Shown here in pieces: positions 41,697 to 61,857 of a stretch of DNA of 64,000 nucleotides. Numbering within the stretch: the first letter of the stretch is position 1; every line of letters starts with the position of its first letter. Below the pieces are notes generated by a model, which ran no database searches, was not told where the DNA came from, and saw only the letters and a list, made by a program, of their open reading frames with translations. Source of the stretch: Cupriavidus respiraculi (lineage in GTDB: Bacteria > Pseudomonadota > Gammaproteobacteria > Burkholderiales > Burkholderiaceae); assembly GCF_914271545.1 (NCBI RefSeq), contig NZ_CAJZAH010000002.1, forward strand, positions 372,001-436,000. The letters run 5' to 3'. Position numbers and translations under genes: made by a program.

Positions 41697-41772
41697 GGGG
41701 CGTTAGCTCAGTTGGTAGAGCAGCGGACTCTTAATCCGTAGGTCGAGTGTTCGAGTCACTCACGCCCCACCA
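41697..41772 (+). tRNA. tRNA-Lys (anticodon CTT), copy 1
   Basis: 76-nt cloverleaf with GGGGCGT pairing ACGCCCC, D-arm TAGCTCAGTTGGTAGAGCA, anticodon loop CTCTTAA (anticodon CTT, reading AAG), T-arm with TTCGAGTC, and encoded CCA. A second identical copy is at 43382-43457. Confidence 0.95.
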
Positions 41773-43381: not shown

Positions 43382-43457
43382 GGGGCGTTAGCTCAGTTGG
43401 TAGAGCAGCGGACTCTTAATCCGTAGGTCGAGTGTTCGAGTCACTCACGCCCCACCA
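43382..43457 (+). tRNA. tRNA-Lys (anticodon CTT), copy 2
   Basis: Identical over 76 nt to the tRNA at 41697-41772, including the encoded CCA. The flanks are also shared: TTCGTT before and AGCGAATTCGAAA after. Confidence 0.95.
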
Positions 43458-53693: not shown

Positions 53694-53710
53694 GTTTTAT
53701 CCCGCAAAAC
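53694..53710. promoter_or_regulatory. IclR operator candidate, copy 1
   Basis: GTTTTATCCCGCAAAAC: arms GTTTT and AAAAC separated by seven bases. The same sequence with one change recurs at 53766-53782, 72 bp downstream. Confidence 0.6.
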
Positions 53711-53765: not shown

Positions 53766-53782
53766 GTTTTATCGCGCAAAAC
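53766..53782. promoter_or_regulatory. IclR operator candidate, copy 2
   Basis: GTTTTATCGCGCAAAAC, immediately downstream of the predicted transcription start and 22 bp before the start codon. Occupancy would block transcription, fitting self-repression. Confidence 0.6.
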
Positions 53783-53804: not shown

Positions 53805-54671
53805 ATGGCAGCCCCCGGTTCTTCCCTGCGCAAGGCCTGCCAATTGCTGCGGGCCTTGTCCGACCCGCGCAATACACGGCTCACCGATCTCGCGCTGGCG
53901 GCGGGCGTCGACAAGGCCTCCGCGCTGCGGCTGCTCGACACGCTGGCGAGCGAGGGGCTGGTCGAGCGCGACCCCGGCACCAAGGCGTACGCGCCGGGCC
54001 CCGAATGGCTGGTCTTGCGCGCCGCGACCGTGCGCCGCGTAGACCCGCGCCCGCTGGTGAGGCCCGCGCTGATCCGGCTGGCTCACGCGTTCGAGGACAC
54101 CGCGATCCTCTCGGTGCCAAGCGGCTGGGAGTCCATCTGTCTCGAACTGCGGCTGGGCAGCTTCCCCATCCGCGCCAATTACCTGGATATCGGCAGCCGC
54201 CGCCCGCTGGGCGTGGGCGCGGGCAGCCTCGCGCTGCTGGCCGCGCTGCCCGACGCCGAAGTCGAGGCGGTGCTGGACTGCGTGGCGCCCGCGCTCAAGC
54301 GCTATCCGCGGCTGTCGCGCGCCGCCCTGCTGCGCCATGTCCAGGCCACGCGCGAGCGCGGCTACGCGGTGCTGCTCGACGTCGTGGTGGAGCGCATGGG
54401 CGGCATCGCGATCGCGCTGCCCGGCCCCGACGGGCGCGCGCTGGGTGCCATCAGCATCGCGGCGCTGAACGAACGCATCACCGAACGCGAGTCCGCCATG
54501 GCGCGCGCGCTGCGGCGCGAGGCCGACGGCGTGGCCGCCGCGCTCGCGGCGCTGTCCTGCGGGGAGCCGGCCGCCCCCGCGCGCGGCGCGCGCCGCTCCG
54601 CCATGGCCGCCGCCGCTACCGGGTCCGCAACCGCATCGATCCCGACCACAACGACACCCAAGGAGGCATGA
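53805..54671 (+). CDS. IclR-family regulator of the catabolic operon
   Basis: Regulator of 288 residues. The helix-turn-helix is near 8-65 (LTDLALAAGVDKASALRLLD). The effector domain spans about 75-250 with SRRPLGVGAGSLALLAAL and GGIAIALPGPDGRALGAISI. A low-complexity Ala/Thr/Pro tail (about 255-288) is unusual. GGAGA lies eight bases before the ATG. The stop lies three bases before the next start, with AAGGAGG between, so it heads and probably controls the operon to 61857. It is only distantly like the IclR at 17902. Confidence 0.88.
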   Translation: MAAPGSSLRKACQLLRALSDPRNTRLTDLALAAGVDKASALRLLDTLASEGLVERDPGTKAYAPGPEWLVLRAATVRRVDPRPLVRPALIRLAHAFEDTAILSVPSGWESICLELRLGSFPIRANYLDIGSRRPLGVGAGSLALLAALPDAEVEAVLDCVAPALKRYPRLSRAALLRHVQATRERGYAVLLDVVVERMGGIAIALPGPDGRALGAISIAALNERITERESAMARALRREADGVAAALAALSCGEPAAPARGARRSAMAAAATGSATASIPTTTTPKEA

Positions 54672-54674
54672 CGC

Positions 54675-55730
54675 ATGCGCTGGCAACAACGTCCGGAAGG
54701 TTCCACCTGGGGCGACTTCGGCCCCGACGACCAACTCGGCCGGGTCAACCTGATCGGCCCCGAGCAGGTACTGAAGGGCGCCCGCGAGGTGCAGGCCGGG
54801 CTGAGCTTCTGCCTGTCGCTGCCGCTGGACTATCCGGGCGGCAACAAGCTCAATCCGCGCCGCCATCCGCCGGTGCTGCGCCCGACCTTCCGCGACGACC
54901 TGCCCTACGTCAACTTCCCGCTGGCCAAGGTCGATGCCGCGGCCACCGATGTCATCAGCGACGACCAGGTACTGCTCTCGCTGCAGTACTCGACGCAATG
55001 GGATTCGCTGGCCCACGTGGGCGCGCTGTTCGATGCCGATGGCGACGGCCGCGCCGAACGCGTCTACTACAACGGCTATCGCGCCAACGAGCATATCGTC
55101 GGCCCTGTGGACTACGCCGAGGACGATCACTTCGCCGCGCACGGCTGCGGCCACGAGCACAGCGAGGCGCGGGCGCTGGGCATCGAGAACTTCGCGGTCA
55201 AGGGCATGCAGGGGCGCGGCGTGCTGGTCGACCTGGCCCACGCGTTCGGCACCGACTTCCGCAATATCGGCTACGACGACCTGATGCGCGCGATGGAAGA
55301 ACAACGCGTGGAGGTGGAACCCGGCGACATGCTGCTGCTGCGGACCGGCTTCGCCGAGGTGGTGCTGTCGATGCACCGCGAGCCGGACGAGGCCGTGCTG
55401 CACCACAGCTGCAGCGCGCTGGACGGGCGCGACGACAGGCTGCTGCAATGGATCACCGACGCCGGCATCGCCGCGCTGATCGCCGACAACTATGCGGTGG
55501 AGCGCTATCCGGCGCGGCCGGCGCCCGCGGGCACACAGGGCCACCCGCTGCTGCCGCTGCACCACCATTGCCTGTTCAAGCTGGGCCTGCCGCTGGGGGA
55601 GCTGTGGTATCTGCACGACCTCGCGCAATGGCTGCGCGAGCATGGCCGCACGCGTTTCATGCTCACCGCGCCCCCGCTGCGCCTGCCCGGCGCGGTAGGC
55701 TCGCCCGCCACCCCGATCGCCACCGTCTGA
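54675..55730 (+). CDS. Cyclase-family (PF04199) metal hydrolase
   Basis: Hydrolase of 351 residues, longer than kynurenine formamidase (about 210). The metal region reads STQWDSLAHVG where the formamidase type has HxGTHxDxxxH, so the first His pair is altered as in the long cyclase subgroup. Later stretches are GRGVLVDLAHAFGTD, VEPGDMLLLRTGFAE and the His-rich PLLPLHHHCLFKLGLPLGE. Such enzymes hydrolyse amides or cyclic esters. It starts three bases after the IclR stop with AAGGAGG. First enzyme of the operon, presumably opening a ring or removing an N-acyl group. Confidence 0.82.
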   Translation: MRWQQRPEGSTWGDFGPDDQLGRVNLIGPEQVLKGAREVQAGLSFCLSLPLDYPGGNKLNPRRHPPVLRPTFRDDLPYVNFPLAKVDAAATDVISDDQVLLSLQYSTQWDSLAHVGALFDADGDGRAERVYYNGYRANEHIVGPVDYAEDDHFAAHGCGHEHSEARALGIENFAVKGMQGRGVLVDLAHAFGTDFRNIGYDDLMRAMEEQRVEVEPGDMLLLRTGFAEVVLSMHREPDEAVLHHSCSALDGRDDRLLQWITDAGIAALIADNYAVERYPARPAPAGTQGHPLLPLHHHCLFKLGLPLGELWYLHDLAQWLREHGRTRFMLTAPPLRLPGAVGSPATPIATV

Positions 55731-55759
55731 GCGGCGACGAACCACCGGAAGGAGACACC

Positions 55760-57022
55760 ATGACTTCGAGCCCTACCCTGCAACGACCCGCTCTGCGCCA
55801 CCGCCTCGCCCGCGGCCTGTGCCTCGGCGCCGCGCTGCTGTGCGCCACCGCGGCCGGCGCGCAGCCGAAGGCCGCCGCGGTATCCGACGACGTGGTCAAG
55901 TTCGGCCTGATCCTGGACATGAGCGGGCTGTACGCCGACGTGACCGGACGCGGCAGCGCCACCGCCGCGCAGATGGCGGTCGACGACTTCGGCGGCAAGG
56001 TACTGGGCAAGAAGATCGAGGTCGTGGTCGCCGATCACCAGAACAAGGCGGATATCGCGGCCAACAAGGCGCGCGAGTGGTTCGACACCGACCGTGTCGA
56101 CGCCATTCTCGACGTGGCCGCGTCGGCCCCCGCGCTGGCGGTGCTGGAGGTGGCCAAGCAGAAGAACCGCATCGTGGTGTTCTCCGGCCCCGGCACCGAG
56201 CGGCTGACCAACGACCTGTGCACGCCCCTCTCGGTACACTACGCCTACGACACCTACGCGCTGGCCAATACCACGGCGCGCGCGATGGTGCAGCGTGGCG
56301 GCAAGACGTGGTACTTCCTGACCGCCGACTACGCATTCGGCCATACGCTGCAGGAGTCGGCCACCACGGTGGTCAACGAGACCGGCGGCAAGGTCCTCGG
56401 CGCCGCGCGCCATCCGATCAACGCCAGCGACTTCGCCTCCTACCTGCTGCAGGCCCAGGCCAGCAAGGCGCAGGTGGTGGGCCTGGCCAACGCGGGCGGC
56501 GACGCGGTGAACGCCATCAAGGCAGCGCACGAGTTCGGCCTGACGCGCAACAACACGCAGAAGCTCGCCGGCCTGCTGCTTTACATCAACGACATCCACG
56601 CGATCGGACTGAAGACCGCGGCAGGGCTGGTGCTGACCGAGGCGTTCTACTGGGACATGAACGACCAGACGCGCGCCTGGTCGCGCCGCTACTTCGAGAA
56701 GATCAAGAAGATGCCGAACATGAGCCAGGCCGGGGTGTATTCGTCGGTGATGCACTACCTGAAGGCGGTGCAGGCGGCGGGCACCGACGAGACCGCCGCG
56801 GTGATGAAGCAGATGAAGGCCATGCCGATCAACGACTTCTTCGCGCGCAACGGCCGCATCCGTGAAGATGGACGAATGATCCACGACATGTACCTGTTCG
56901 AGGTGAAGTCCCCGGCGGAGTCCAAGCAACCATGGGACTACTACAAGCTGCTGGCCACGGTACCCGGGGACCAGGCGTTCACCCCCGTGGCGAAATCCAA
57001 GTGCCCGCTGCTCAAGCGCTGA
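55760..57022 (+). CDS. ABC-type branched-chain amino acid binding protein (LivK-like), orphan
   Basis: Periplasmic binding protein of 420 residues. The signal peptide ends near residue 34 (LLCATAAGAQ). The mature domain starts VVKFGLILDMSGLYADVTG, the Peripla_BP_6 signature, with VVVADHQNKADIAANKAREW and LTADYAFGHTLQESA further on. No Liv permease or ATPase is nearby, so it may borrow another transporter. AAGGAGAC precedes the ATG. Its presence in the operon suggests uptake of an amide or aromatic acid. Confidence 0.87.
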   Translation: MTSSPTLQRPALRHRLARGLCLGAALLCATAAGAQPKAAAVSDDVVKFGLILDMSGLYADVTGRGSATAAQMAVDDFGGKVLGKKIEVVVADHQNKADIAANKAREWFDTDRVDAILDVAASAPALAVLEVAKQKNRIVVFSGPGTERLTNDLCTPLSVHYAYDTYALANTTARAMVQRGGKTWYFLTADYAFGHTLQESATTVVNETGGKVLGAARHPINASDFASYLLQAQASKAQVVGLANAGGDAVNAIKAAHEFGLTRNNTQKLAGLLLYINDIHAIGLKTAAGLVLTEAFYWDMNDQTRAWSRRYFEKIKKMPNMSQAGVYSSVMHYLKAVQAAGTDETAAVMKQMKAMPINDFFARNGRIREDGRMIHDMYLFEVKSPAESKQPWDYYKLLATVPGDQAFTPVAKSKCPLLKR

Positions 57023-57038
57023 CCGCCGGAACCCGCGC

Positions 57039-58181
57039 ATGGCATCCATCGCTTATCTCCGCGGCACCGGCAATACGCGTTTCGGCCGCCTTCCGGGCAG
57101 CGCGCCGCTGCCGCTGATGGCCGAGGCCGCGGACGCCGCGCTGGCCGAAGCAGGCCTGGCGCGCGGCGACGTCGACGGCGTGCTGTGCGGGTACGCGACC
57201 ACGCTGCCGCACCTGATGCTGGCAGACCTGTTCTGCGAGTACGCGTCCCTGTCGCCCGCCTATGCGCACGGCATGGCCGCGGGCGGCGCCACCGGCGGCG
57301 CGATGGCGATGCTCGCGCGCGAACTGGTGCGCGGCGGACGCTGCGCCAACGTGCTGGTGGTAGCGGGCGAGAACCGCCTGTCGGGCCAGAGCCGCGACCA
57401 GTCGATCCAGACGCTGGCGCAGGTCGGCGAGCCGCATGTGGAGGTGCCCAACGGCGCGTCGGTGCCCGCCTACTACGCGCTGCTCGCGTCGCGTTATCTG
57501 ATGGAGGCCGGCATCGCGCGCGATGCGCTGGCCGACTTCGCCGTGCTGATGCGCGAGCATGCGCGCGGCCATCCCGACGCGCATCTGCGCGAGCCGCTCA
57601 ACGCGCAGGACGCCCGCGCCGCCAAGCCGGTGGCCTCGCCGCTGCTGCTGTCGGACTGCTGCCCGATCTCGGACGGCGCGGTGGCGGTCGTCGTCTCGGC
57701 GCAGCCGGGGCCGGGCCGGCCCGTGCGCCTGGCGGGGGCCGGGCAGGCGCACCGTCACCAGCACCTGTGCGCGATGGACAGCGTGATGGTCACCGGTGCC
57801 GGCGAGGCCGCCGCGCGGGCGCTCGGCGAGGCCGGCCGCACGGTGGATCAGATGGACTACCTGGCGATCTACGACTCCTTCACCATCACGCTGGTGATGC
57901 TGCTCGAGGAGCTCGGCGTCGCGCCGCGCGGCCGTGCGCATGCGCGCCTGCTCGCCGGGGACTTCGCGCGCGATGGCGCGATGCCGCTGAACACGCACGG
58001 CGGCCTGCTCGCCTTCGGCCACTCGGGCGTGGCCGGCGGGCTGATGCATCTGGCCGAAGCCGCGCGCCAGCTCGCCGGACTCGCCGGCCCCCGCCAGGTG
58101 GCACCGCGCCGGCGCGCCCTCTTCCACGCGGACGGCGGCGTGCTGTCGTCCCATGTCAGCCTGGTACTGGAGGCCGAATGA
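57039..58181 (+). CDS. SCP2-type thiolase-like protein lacking the nucleophilic cysteine (Ltp2-like)
   Basis: Thiolase-fold protein of 380 residues. The usual nucleophile block (CxSG) is replaced by AHGMAAGGATGGAMAML near residues 80-96, with no Cys. The C-terminus keeps NTHGGLLAFGHSGVAGGLMH, which carries the family His, and AIYDSFTITLVMLLEELG near 276 has a Tyr at the position of the catalytic Tyr proposed in Ltp2-type aldolases. It ends overlapping the DUF35 gene (ATGA), and such pairs form heterodimers acting on CoA thioesters. It may perform retro-aldol cleavage or condensation instead of thiolysis; the reaction is inferred. Confidence 0.75.
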   Translation: MASIAYLRGTGNTRFGRLPGSAPLPLMAEAADAALAEAGLARGDVDGVLCGYATTLPHLMLADLFCEYASLSPAYAHGMAAGGATGGAMAMLARELVRGGRCANVLVVAGENRLSGQSRDQSIQTLAQVGEPHVEVPNGASVPAYYALLASRYLMEAGIARDALADFAVLMREHARGHPDAHLREPLNAQDARAAKPVASPLLLSDCCPISDGAVAVVVSAQPGPGRPVRLAGAGQAHRHQHLCAMDSVMVTGAGEAAARALGEAGRTVDQMDYLAIYDSFTITLVMLLEELGVAPRGRAHARLLAGDFARDGAMPLNTHGGLLAFGHSGVAGGLMHLAEAARQLAGLAGPRQVAPRRRALFHADGGVLSSHVSLVLEAE

Positions 58182-58597
58182 CGAGCACAGCAACGCATGG
58201 CACAGGCGCTACAGCGCCAGGTCCGGCGACCGATGCCGCGACCGGTACGCATCCCTACACCGCCGGCCTTGCCGCGGGGCGCGTGCGCTACCAGCACTGC
58301 GAGGCTTGTGGCGCATGGCAACCGCTCGAGCGTCACGCTTGCCGCGCGTGCGGCGCCACCCGGCTGGCGTGGCGCGATGCCGGCGGACTGGCCACGGTCT
58401 ATGCCGTCACGGAAGTGGCGCGCGCGCCGACCGACGCCTTTCGCGCCCTGGCGCCGTACACGCTGGTGCTCGCCACGCTGGACGAAGGACCGCGCGTGAT
58501 GGGCCACGGCGAGCCGGGCCTGGCCATCGGCGATCGCGTGCGCGCCGGCTTCATGCGGCATGGCGAAGACACCCTGCTGCGCTTCCTGCGCGAGTAG
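58178..58597 (+). CDS. DUF35 / zinc-ribbon OB-fold protein, thiolase partner
   Basis: Protein of 139 residues with a zinc ribbon C41-x2-C44 ... C55-x2-C58 followed by an OB fold (ATVYAVTEVARAPTDAF, YTLVLATLDEGPRVMGHG). It is the standard partner of SCP2/Ltp2-type thiolases, often needed for their stability and acyl-CoA binding. Coupled by a four-base overlap to the thiolase. The Thr/Ala-rich first 25 residues look disordered. Confidence 0.85.
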   Translation: MTSTATHGTGATAPGPATDAATGTHPYTAGLAAGRVRYQHCEACGAWQPLERHACRACGATRLAWRDAGGLATVYAVTEVARAPTDAFRALAPYTLVLATLDEGPRVMGHGEPGLAIGDRVRAGFMRHGEDTLLRFLRE

Positions 58598-58675
58598 CCC
58601 GTCGCGACGCTTCCCCGGCCACGACGCGACGATGCGGCTGGCCGTCGCGCACGACCACAACAACGGAGACCCATC

Positions 58676-59680
58676 ATGCAACCGAACTTTCCGCGTCGGC
58701 GGGCGGCGCTCGCCCTGACGATTCCCTGCCTCTGGCTTGCCGGCGCGGCTGCCGTGCTCAGTCCCGCGCCCGCACTCGGCCAGACATGGCCGGACAAGCC
58801 GATCAAGCTGGTGGTGCCCTACCCGCCGGGTGGCCCCACCGACATCGTGGCGCGCGTGGTCGGGCAGAAGCTGGGCGACCGGCTGGGCCAGCCCGTGGTG
58901 GTGGAGAACCGGCCCGGCGCCGGCGGCAATATCGGCGCCGAGGCGGTAGCCAAGGCCGCGCCGGACGGCTACACCCTGCTGGTGGCCACCACCGCGCACG
59001 CGATCAACATGACCCTGTTCCGCAAGCCCGGCTACGACACCCGCAAGGACTTCGCGCCGGTCAGCCTGCTGACCCGGGGGCCACTGGTGCTGGTGACGGC
59101 CCCGTCGACGCCCGCCTCGACGGTGGCGGAGCTGATCGCGCTGGCCAAGGCCAAACCCGGCGCCGTCACGTTCGCCAGCTCGGGCAACGGCCAGTCCACC
59201 CACCTTGCCGCCGAGCTGTTCAACACGATGGCCGGCATCCGCATGACGCACGTGCCGTACAAGGGCAGCGCTCCCGCGCTGACCGACGTGATGGGCGGCC
59301 AGGCCACCGTGATGTTCGACACCATGCTGTCGGCCATGCCGTTCGTGCGCGACGGCAAGCTCAAGGCCCTGGCGGTCACCGGCGCGAGCCGCTCGCCCGC
59401 CGCCCCCGACGTGCCCACCGTCGCGCAGTCGGGACTGGCGGGCTACGAGGCCACGGCATGGAACGCGCTGCTGGCGCCGGCCGGCACGCCGCCCGCGGTG
59501 CTCGATGCCGTCGGCCAGGCGCTCAAGACCGTGCTGGACGACGGCGACGTGCGCGCCAGGTTCGCCACGCAAGGCTTCGCCGCCGAATGGACTGCCCCGC
59601 CGGCCACCGCCCGCTTCCTTGGCGACGAGATCGACAAATGGGCCAGGGTCGTCAAGGCGTCCGGCGCTACCATCGACTGA
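58676..59680 (+). CDS. Bug-family periplasmic solute-binding protein in the catabolic operon
   Basis: Binding protein of 334 residues. The signal peptide ends near residue 34 (SPAPALGQ). Mature motifs are [20 protein letters not shown] and [28 protein letters not shown] precedes the ATG. There are no tctA/tctB genes; with the LivK-like protein at 55760 the operon thus encodes two different orphan receptors. Likely ligand: an aromatic or aliphatic carboxylate. Confidence 0.9.
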
Positions 59681-59712
59681 CCCGCCCGTTTCGCACCACA
59701 AGGATCTTCACC

Positions 59713-61857
59713 ATGGAACCCACCCTGCAGGCGCTGCTCGCCCCGCGCTCCATCGCCGTGATCGGCGCGTCCGACCACATCCACAAGATCGGCGGCCGGC
59801 CCATCCACTACATGCTGAACCACGGCTACGCCGGCACCCTGTTCCCGGTCAATCCGCAACGCGACAGCATCCAGGGCCTGCCCGCCTATCCGTCGCTCGA
59901 CGCGCTGCCGGCCGTGCCGGAACTGGCGATCATCGTCGTCGCGGGAGACGCCGCGGTGCAGGCCGTGCGCGATTGCGCGCGGCTCGGTGTGGCGGCCGCC
60001 ATCGTGATCGCCTCCGGGTTCGGCGAAGCCGGCCCCGAGGGCAAGCGCCAACAGGACGAGATGGTGCGCGTGGCGGCCGCCGCGGGACTGCGGCTGGTCG
60101 GCCCGAACAGCCAGGGTCTGGCCAACTTCGGCAGCGGCACCATTGCCAGCTTCTCGACCATGTTCATCGAGGTGCCGCCGCGCGACGGCCCGGTGGCGGT
60201 GGTCAGCCAGAGCGGCGGGGTCAGCGCCATGGTCTATGGGCTGCTGCGCGGGCAAGGCATCGGCGTGCGGCACATGCATGCCACCGGCAACGAGGCCGAC
60301 ATCACCGTCAGCGAGCTCGCGCTCGCGGTCGCGCACGACGAGGACGTGCGGCTCATCCTGCTGTACCTGGAAAGCCTGACCGATCCCGCCGTGCTGGCCC
60401 TCGCCGCCGCCACCGCCCGCGCGCGCGGCGTCCCCATGGTCGCCGTCAAGGCCGGACGCACCGGCGCGGGACAGCGCGCCGCCGCCTCGCACACCGGCGC
60501 CATCGCCAACGAGGACCGCGCCGTGGACGCCTTCCTGCGGCACCACGGCATCTGGCGCGTGGATGACGCCCATGCGCTGGCACGCTGCGCCCCGCTGTAC
60601 CTGCGCGGGTGGCGCGCGGGCGGCCGGCGCCTCGTGGTGGTCAGCAATTCGGGCGCGAGCTGCGTGATGGCGGCGGACGCGGCCGATGCGCGTGGCCTCT
60701 CGATGGCCGCGCTGTCGGACGCCACGCAGGCCGCGCTGGCCGAGCGCCTGCCCGGCTTCGCCGCCACGGCCAATCCGGTCGACGTGACGGCCGCCCTGCT
60801 GACCAACAGCGCGCTGTTCGGCGACGTGCTGCCCGTGGTGGCGCAGGACCCGTCCACCGACATGGTGCTGCTCGATATTCCGGTGGCGGGCATGGGTTAC
60901 GACGTCGAGCGCTTCGCCCGCGATGCGGCATCGTTCGCCGATACCGCCGGCAAGCCCATCGCGGTGGCCGCCTGGCAGGACCTTGTCGCCGCGCCGTTCC
61001 GCGCGGCGGACGTGCCGACCTACGACAGCGCGGCCGATGCGCTGTCCGCCTTCAGCCAGCTCGTATCGCACCAGGCGCTGCTGGATCGGATACGGACGGA
61101 GCCGCCCGCGATGGCTTCGGCGGCGCCGTCGTCTTCAGAGTCCGCGCCGCGAAAGGCGCTCCGCGAGGAACTGGCCACGGCCACGCTGAGCGAGGCCGCC
61201 AGCCTCGCGCGGCTGGCGGAAGCCGGCGTGCCCGTGGTTGCGCACCGCCTCTGCCAGACGGCGGACGAAGCCGTGGCGGCGTGGCGCGAGCTCGGTGGCC
61301 CGGTGGCCGTCAAGGCCAGTTCCCCGCAGGTGCCGCACAAGAGCGAGCACGGGCTCGTGGCACTGCACTGCGACGATGCCGACACGGTGGCGCAGGCCTT
61401 CGACCGCCAGACCGCCATCCTGGCGGCGATGGGCGCCGACTGCGAAGGCGTGGTGGTCGCGCGCATGACGCGCGGGCAGCGCGAATGCATGGTCGGCGCG
61501 CATTGGGACCCCGTGTTCGGCCCCGTGGTGGTGGTCGGCGATGGCGGCAAGTACGTCGAGGTGTTGAACGACTCGGCGGTGCTGCTCGCGCCTTGCAGCG
61601 AGGACGCCGTCGTGCGCGAGCTTGCGGGCCTGCGCATCGCCCCGCTGCTGCGCGGCGTGCGGGGCGAGCCCGCCGTGGACATGGCCGCGCTGGCCCGCAT
61701 CGCGGTACTCGTGGGGCGGCTGATGCACGACGCCGGCGGCGCCATCCGGGCAATCGACCTGAACCCGGTAATGCTGAGCGCCGATGGCGCTGTGGTGGTG
61801 GACGGTCTGATGGAAGTGTCCGCCGAGCTTGCGCTGGAGCACGGGGCGCGCGTCTGA
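59713..61857 (+). CDS. Fused ADP-forming acyl-CoA synthetase (acetate-CoA ligase type)
   Basis: Enzyme of 714 residues that joins an acid to CoA with ATP, releasing ADP. The CoA-binding Rossmann domain is about 8-135 (SIAVIGASDHIHKIGG). The succinyl-CoA ligase-like domain has VVSQSGGVSAMVYGLL and ASHTGAIANEDRAVDAFL, with the His that is phosphorylated in the family. The ATP-grasp part is about 490-710 (GPVAVKASSPQVPHKSEHG, VVVGDGGKYVEVLND, AIDLNPVML). Start ATG at 59713. Probably activates the imported acid before the thiolase-like step; last gene of the operon, no terminator seen in the 243-bp gap. Confidence 0.88.
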   Translation: MEPTLQALLAPRSIAVIGASDHIHKIGGRPIHYMLNHGYAGTLFPVNPQRDSIQGLPAYPSLDALPAVPELAIIVVAGDAAVQAVRDCARLGVAAAIVIASGFGEAGPEGKRQQDEMVRVAAAAGLRLVGPNSQGLANFGSGTIASFSTMFIEVPPRDGPVAVVSQSGGVSAMVYGLLRGQGIGVRHMHATGNEADITVSELALAVAHDEDVRLILLYLESLTDPAVLALAAATARARGVPMVAVKAGRTGAGQRAAASHTGAIANEDRAVDAFLRHHGIWRVDDAHALARCAPLYLRGWRAGGRRLVVVSNSGASCVMAADAADARGLSMAALSDATQAALAERLPGFAATANPVDVTAALLTNSALFGDVLPVVAQDPSTDMVLLDIPVAGMGYDVERFARDAASFADTAGKPIAVAAWQDLVAAPFRAADVPTYDSAADALSAFSQLVSHQALLDRIRTEPPAMASAAPSSSESAPRKALREELATATLSEAASLARLAEAGVPVVAHRLCQTADEAVAAWRELGGPVAVKASSPQVPHKSEHGLVALHCDDADTVAQAFDRQTAILAAMGADCEGVVVARMTRGQRECMVGAHWDPVFGPVVVVGDGGKYVEVLNDSAVLLAPCSEDAVVRELAGLRIAPLLRGVRGEPAVDMAALARIAVLVGRLMHDAGGAIRAIDLNPVMLSADGAVVVDGLMEVSAELALEHGARV

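Follow-up and report, generated by a model that had tools for sequence, protein, structure and literature searches.

We analysed a stretch of 64,000 nucleotides from Cupriavidus respiraculi (contig NZ_CAJZAH010000002.1, positions 372,001 to 436,000 of the forward strand; below, the window). Near its end lie genes for an IclR-family regulator, a cyclase-family hydrolase (Cyc), two periplasmic receptors (LivK and Bug), a thiolase-like protein (Thl), a DUF35 protein and an acyl-coenzyme A (acyl-CoA) ligase. An earlier note, made from the sequence alone, had proposed an IclR-headed catabolic operon for an acid and had advised looking for it in other genomes. The proposal was borne out: the seven genes are co-directional, and the search found 28 orthologous loci, in all of which (28/28) LivK, Thl, DUF35 and the ligase stand behind iclR.

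Operon layout, conservation and upstream site

The window genes from 53805 to 61857 form a tight co-directional operon running from iclR to the ligase gene (Table 1). Cyc, LivK, Thl, DUF35, Bug and the ligase are intact open frames on the + strand, separated from iclR onwards by 3, 29, 16, -4, 78 and 32 bases (frame coordinates). The 4-base overlap of the Thl and DUF35 genes recurs as a gap of -4 in 21/28 relative loci, where gene starts are approximate because they come from script-based gene calls. The operon starts at iclR (53805), one gene before position 54675, at which the earlier note had set in. A GMC oxidoreductase and an aldo/keto reductase gene just upstream in the window were ruled out as operon members: with E <= 1e-10 and 35% coverage as thresholds, neither was matched in a single one of the 28 loci (L032-L059), which is why we let the unit begin at iclR. 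A promoter scan found none, and a terminator scan found 2 where 2.5 are expected.

Table 1. Genes and sites of the operon in the window (positions of the 64,000-nucleotide stretch)
Feature	Position	Strand	Basis or remark
Operator-like 17-bp near-palindrome, copy 1 GTTTTATCCCGCAAAAC	53694..53710	.	inside 22-nt direct repeat
Operator-like 17-bp near-palindrome, copy 2 GTTTTATCGCGCAAAAC	53766..53782	.	inside 22-nt direct repeat
IclR-family regulator, first operon gene	53805..54671	+	PF09339 (HTH_IclR), PF01614 (IclR_C)
Cyc: cyclase-family metal-dependent esterase/lactonase-type hydrolase, cytosolic by appearance	54675..55730	+	PF04199 (Cyclase); active-site residues as in MGS0169
LivK: branched-chain-amino-acid-type periplasmic binding protein, no adjoining permease	55760..57022	+	PF13458 (Peripla_BP_6)
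Thl: candidate Cys-less thiolase-fold aldolase (YDSF, His328)	57039..58181	+	Thiolase_C_1/Thiolase_N; alignment, tree
DUF35 partner (zinc ribbon + OB fold)	58178..58597	+	PF12172 (zf-ChsH2), PF01796 (OB_ChsH2_C)
Bug/TctC-type periplasmic receptor, optional	58676..59680	+	PF03401 (TctC); 16/28 loci
ADP-forming acyl-CoA synthetase, fused alpha-beta	59713..61857	+	PF13380, PF13607, PF13549 (CoA_binding_2/Succ_CoA_lig/ATP-grasp_5)

Among 32 loci returned for close relatives, 28 are close orthologues, with 79-87% identity (26 carry the label Cupriavidus, the remaining two Ralstonia sp. and Burkholderiaceae bacterium); four more (L060-L063) hold only distantly related thiolases, 26-34% identical. 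No locus of the 28 lacks LivK, Thl, DUF35 or the ligase; Cyc is present in 27 (it is missing in L053), and the Bug gene stands between DUF35 and the ligase in 16. These loci are related by descent and so not independent. With this degree of conservation, the association of the genes is not a matter of chance. Within the genus, Thl was found at E <= 1e-90 in 24/35 other genomes; in one genome without it (G008), Cyc and LivK are still adjacent (L144).

Upstream of iclR, a 22-base direct repeat carries both copies of the near-palindrome, GTTTTATCSCGCAAAAC. The exact pattern occurs in the own genome in two places only, both upstream of iclR, while the reversed control pattern occurs nowhere; three further sites have two mismatches. 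Allowing at most four mismatches and a distance of no more than 250 bp ahead of the iclR start as called, the near-palindrome is present in 28/28 relatives, with 36 such sites in the stretches upstream of iclR as opposed to 2 in the other 568 kb. Its majority form in the relatives is GTTTCATCCCGCAAAAC, lying 26 to 178 bp from iclR. We infer a putative operator, on which IclR, the product of the first gene, would act to control both itself and the pathway, its binding and its sign being presumed alike. The protein scores far under the NCBIfam cut-offs for named equivalogs of the IclR family.

Elsewhere in the window, two tRNA genes of equal Rfam score (41697-41769 and 43382-43454) lie 1.7 kb apart.

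Catalytic residues of the thiolase-like protein, the hydrolase and the ligase

Pfam, PDB and fold searches group Thl with SCP2-type thiolases and DUF35-bound aldolases, and its structure model has a mean predicted local distance difference test (pLDDT) of 81 and a predicted template modelling score (pTM) of 0.87. One result weighs against reading it as an aldolase: in structural comparison with Thl, true thiolases score at least as high as Sal and Ltp2. The fold alone is therefore not decisive, and it is the residues that decide. In a joint alignment, the column of the nucleophilic cysteine (CxS/TG loop) holds Gly83 in Thl, near-invariant in 55 members, whereas a cysteine is present there in an own-genome paralogue (L160) and in PDB 7yvy. 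The column of the second catalytic cysteine holds Ala364 (the family rows shown have Ala or Gly), with Cys again in the L160 paralogue. The motifs YDSF and GH occur in all 55 family members examined, so that Tyr278 of YDSF, the counterpart of Tyr294 in the YDHF motif of Ltp2, is invariant (55/55). Because both catalytic cysteines are missing and the aldolase tyrosine is kept, Thl probably makes a CoA-dependent retro-aldol cut. With both cysteines gone, thiolysis and acyl transfer of the PhlABC type were ruled out; PhlC uses a cysteine of this kind.

The remaining active-site positions set Thl apart from the steroid enzymes. According to the accessible part of the report on CtSal, its Tyr302 and Cys304 are essential and a glycine in place of the nucleophilic cysteine is said to exclude thiolysis, and TcLtp2 catalysis uses Tyr294 and Tyr344 (PMC12329534). 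In Thl, Ser280 replaces the Cys/His of Sal/Ltp2, leaving the Tyr302-Cys304 dyad of Sal incomplete, and His328, the active-site histidine of thiolases, occupies the column of Sal Gln352 and Ltp2 Tyr344. A tree of 32 sequences from one alignment (19 family members, 4 PDB references, 4 own-genome paralogues and 5 others; BbsB and TbSLP were left out) places the Thl family in a clade of its own (ultrafast bootstrap (UFBoot) 100) within a Cys-less group that also has UFBoot 100, and a group of Ltp2, Sal, PDB 4u4e and four relatives leaves the family outside (UFBoot 89). FastTree returned the same grouping, with a family node value, as printed after midpoint rooting, of 0.29. By these trees Thl lies outside the Ltp2/Sal clade, beside it. 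Two more Cys-less thiolase-like genes of the own genome (L158:6525-9486 and L159:7847-9533) have a DUF35-like zinc-ribbon neighbour as judged by eye, and one of them adjoins CoA-transferase-like genes; their proteins group with 4u4e. In the DUF35 protein of the operon, four cysteines are near-invariant in 49 members, and it would form a complex with Thl.

For Cyc, the only PDB relative by sequence at E <= 0.1 is 5ibz (3.5e-41), which we take for MGS0169, since its residue numbering matches once an offset of 18 is applied. As described in the available part of its report, MGS0169 is a metal-stimulated esterase with an altered motif, Gln127-Gln131-Asp133-His137, plus Arg87, His286 and Glu299; the motif is common to trans-dienelactone hydrolase, and the esterase activity lies at least three orders above the hydrolysis of isatin (PMC5341072). 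Seven Cyc residues (R63, Q104, Q108, D110, H114, H296 and E309) are in register with these seven and near-invariant in 49 homologues. The likeness to trans-dienelactone hydrolase runs through the published motif. Cyc has the esterase-type PF04199 pattern (QxxxQxDxxxH with pocket Arg, His and Glu) and not the HxxxHxDxxxH metal motif of amidohydrolases such as isatin hydrolase and KynB, both leading histidines being glutamine. Since the site is this esterase/trans-dienelactone-hydrolase variant, Cyc likely hydrolyses an ester or a lactone rather than a lactam. A structure model of Cyc was discarded (mean pLDDT 31).

Further Cyc homologues stand in other company. One, 62% identical (L146), lies among genes with Pfam matches to muconolactone isomerase, alpha/beta hydrolase and YCII proteins, in a cluster that also holds a short-chain fatty acid transporter and a thiolase in which Pfam finds both thiolase domains. 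Three more (L145, L150 and L153; 72, 59 and 55% identical) have, by BLAST, clusters k50-k53 in common with L146, Pfam having been run on L146 only. These PF04199 proteins are candidate dienelactone or muconolactone hydrolases of another pathway.

The ligase has the CoA-binding, Succ-CoA-ligase-like and ATP-grasp domains and the conserved histidine of ADP-forming acyl-CoA synthetases. SHTG (259-262) and HKS (542-544) are near-invariant in 48 members, including H260 and H542, which we take to be catalytic. Its best PDB relative is the 4-hydroxybutyrate-CoA ligase 8wzu, and among the NCBIfam models the alpha subunit of acetate-CoA ligase scores best, with 349 bits. It shares its domains with the ADP-forming acetate-, 4-hydroxybutyrate- and 3-hydroxypropionate-CoA ligases but differs from them in falling far under the NCBIfam cut-offs (349 of 567, 328 of 1300 and 297 of 1300 bits). 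Of the receptors, LivK matches PDB 3i09 at 1.1e-148, and the PDB relatives of Bug are Bug27 and the terephthalate-binding protein; neither comparison names a ligand.

These residues bear on several proposals of the earlier note. Activation by an ADP-forming synthetase is supported by the fused-type domains and the conserved histidine, and a CoA-dependent enzyme acting on a carbon-carbon bond by the thiolase fold and the aldolase tyrosine. Calling that enzyme Ltp2-like is right as far as the fold and the lost nucleophile go; it does not hold for the clade, nor for the catalytic residues, neither full set being present. The lactams among its suggested substrates lose ground with the esterase/lactonase variant found in Cyc.

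Distant relatives and their gene neighbourhoods

Thl was further sought in 399 genomes of the order (threshold 1e-85) and 398 genomes of the phylum (threshold 1e-80), drawn evenly from the larger groups, with at most four candidates scored per genome. It is present in 34/399 and 12/398 genomes, the own genome included in each. The surroundings were mapped for 32 of the 33 other order genomes (the last has Thl on a 3.1-kb contig) and for all 11 other phylum genomes; the resulting counts refer to fetched stretches of mostly 20 kb and thresholds set by us, and some families contribute several loci.

DUF35 lies near Thl in 31/32 order and 11/11 phylum loci (42/43 within the fetched stretch), the one miss (L183) being at a contig end. 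The ligase is near Thl in 25/32 order and 2/11 phylum loci, and a CoA-transferase III in 2/32 and 10/11, so that one or the other accompanies Thl in 27/32 and 11/11 loci, or 38/43 within about 10 kb. Cyc is near Thl in 10/32 order loci, which include four families besides the own one, and in 1/11 phylum loci; IclR is found in 13/32 order loci. While there is no permease gene inside the Cupriavidus operon, 7/32 order loci have a complete LivKHMGF set within the stretch. The gene order is reshuffled among the distant loci, for example Liv-Cyc-IclR-Thl-DUF35-ligase with a divergent AtuA in three loci (L103, L107 and L177) and IclR-Thl-DUF35-AtuA-ligase-Liv in another (L094), and this argues for a functional linkage.

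In 11/32 order loci, from six families, a gene for AtuA (acyclic terpene utilisation protein) stands no more than about 10 kb from Thl-DUF35. It has been tentatively assigned, in the accessible part of the source, as a lyase for tertiary beta-hydroxyacyl-CoA in terpene catabolism (PMC4847356). The recurrence of AtuA nearby is compatible with a hydroxy acid of branched or tertiary structure. AtuA adjoins Thl-DUF35 in these order loci but stands outside the window operon: the only match in the window genome is on another contig, away from it (L157:8483-11270). There, AtuA and an AtuA-ferredoxin gene form a pair beside a Bug receptor, which gives no clue to a substrate.

Other loci point to further variants. 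In L138, of the phylum family f88, Pfam places Thl-DUF35 after an epimerase, a PfkB kinase, a KDPG-type aldolase, a Cys-type thiolase paralogue and a CoA-transferase III, together with a sugar-type ABC transporter; L137, L139, L140 and L142 share its BLAST clusters. By their gene content, the f88 loci suggest a sugar-acid-linked version. L178-L182 carry, besides Thl and DUF35, only a thiolase paralogue, a CoA-transferase and, in two of them, an acyl-CoA dehydrogenase as labelled genes. In L102 (9266-14078), two genes, for an FAD-linked oxidase and for a D-2-hydroxyacid dehydrogenase, stand between Thl and DUF35; for that lineage, they hint at an acid of the 2-hydroxy or 2-oxo type.

Proposed pathway, alternatives and known systems

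We give an even chance to the reading that the operon is a self-contained catabolic unit for one carboxylic ester or lactone, degraded via a CoA thioester and a retro-aldol cut. The LivK-type receptor, and the Bug-type where present, would capture the compound for permeases encoded elsewhere. Cyc, as a cytosolic metal-dependent hydrolase, would then open this ester or lactone, leaving a beta-hydroxy acid, which the ADP-forming synthetase would convert to its CoA thioester. Thl, together with DUF35, would break the C2-C3 bond, with Tyr278 as the base on the beta-hydroxyl and His328 and/or Ser280 as possible proton donor, to yield acetyl-CoA (or propionyl-CoA) and an aldehyde or ketone. The earlier note had put hydrolysis before import. 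Read by eye, both receptors start with a signal peptide and Cyc has no visible one, so we place import first. As there is no hydratase or dehydrogenase in the operon, the hydroxyl would be pre-existing or arise from lactone opening.

As for the substrate, one idea, which we rate as quite unlikely, is a carboxymethyl-gamma-lactone of muconolactone type, among them the 4-alkyl muconolactones, which obstruct the isomerase route normally taken. Chemically, opening such a ring would put the hydroxyl beta to the side-chain carboxylate, so that the ligase and the aldolase could act directly, with no hydratase or dehydrogenase, to give acetyl-CoA and a 4-oxo acid. In line with it, Cyc homologues adjoin muconolactone-isomerase genes.

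Thl-DUF35 might instead carry out another reaction on a CoA ester, either hydrolytic retro-Claisen cleavage of a beta-keto acid or decarboxylation, in a pathway starting from a beta-keto or malonyl-type acid. The thiolase histidine kept as His328 would suit this, and PDB 4u4e, with the identical YDSF motif, is named in its record just 'thiolase'. We hold it unlikely, given that the tyrosine essential for the retro-aldol reaction in Sal and Ltp2 is invariant in the Thl family, and to our knowledge, no search having been made, retro-Claisen cleavage has no precedent in the thiolase fold without the nucleophilic cysteine. The available part of the Sal report cuts both ways: the likewise Cys-less TbSLP showed very slow malonyl-CoA decarboxylation, but Sal showed no such activity (PMC12329534). 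Nor does it seem probable that one regulator governs two loosely coupled modules, Cyc and LivK for a hydrolysable compound and Thl-DUF35-ligase for an acid of other origin. Such a split would account for Cyc-LivK without Thl in L144, for L148 and L151, where Cyc and LivK occur together (in L151 at a distance of 5 kb) but an orthologous Thl is lacking, and for the ligase without Cyc in 17/32 order loci. It is countered by the co-directional arrangement behind one iclR in 28/28 loci, Cyc being there in 27, and by Cyc near Thl, with the genes differently arranged, in four further order families (f10, f19, f24 and f39) and in L141 outside the order.

A third possibility takes the substrate to be an aryl acid or arylpropanoid, activated by the ligase and relieved of acetyl- or propionyl-CoA by Thl-DUF35. 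Its model is the ipf operon for ibuprofen (CoA ligase, dioxygenase, IpfDE), in which, according to the accessible part of the source, CoA activation is followed by a two-gene thiolase-type retro-aldolase (ipfDE) that releases an acyl-CoA (PMC9195938). The resemblance of the Bug receptor to the terephthalate-binding protein points the same way, but Bug receptors are too diverse for naming a ligand, and neither a ring oxygenase nor a hydratase is among the Pfam matches of the window operon. We regard an aryl-acid route as very unlikely. The IpfE protein is of the DUF35 type, and the ibuprofen ligase is AMP-forming. As far as the accessible part describes it, the ibuprofen scheme also differs from the window operon in that it needs a ring dioxygenase and has no hydrolase step (PMC9195938).

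Further known counterparts are the steroid side-chain retro-aldolases Ltp2-ChsH2(DUF35) and Sal-Shy(DUF35), which, like Thl, have the SCP2-thiolase fold, have lost the nucleophilic cysteine, keep the first tyrosine of the YDxF/Y motif and adjoin a DUF35 gene. Unlike them, Thl falls in a separate clade, has Ser as third motif residue where they have His or Cys and His328 against Tyr344 of Ltp2 and Gln352 of Sal, and its DUF35 neighbour is without a hydratase domain. The operon probably works like the ibuprofen and steroid systems, yet judging from catalytic sets and clade it lies outside the steroid families tested. VceA/VceB (acetovanillone/vanilloyl acetic acid) are named without a comparable family in the available parts of two papers and were of no help (PMC11837543, PMC9618137).

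In the literature searched, which took in few subscription journals, we found no paper on the gene set and no substrate assigned to it, as the earlier note had supposed; this is weak evidence of novelty. The words 'cyclase' and 'ADP-forming' do not occur in the accessible main text of PMC12543098. The note's wider statement that no such pathway is described was too strong, since the ibuprofen ligase/retro-aldolase route (PMC9195938) and the steroid DUF35 retro-aldolases (PMC12329534) are on record in the parts available. What is known is the logic of a ligase followed by a thiolase-like retro-aldolase; what is new is the Thl clade and the gene combination.

Were a muconolactone the substrate, the operon would offer a new path around a known dead end of aromatic catabolism. 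More generally, the analysis marks a Cys-less thiolase-fold clade apart from the steroid aldolases, present in 34/399 order genomes and 11 further phylum genomes and usually with DUF35 and a CoA-activating enzyme nearby. It offers enzymologists a candidate retro-aldolase family with a defined partner, and would give a specific role to genes that general annotation names thiolase, OB-fold protein and cyclase.

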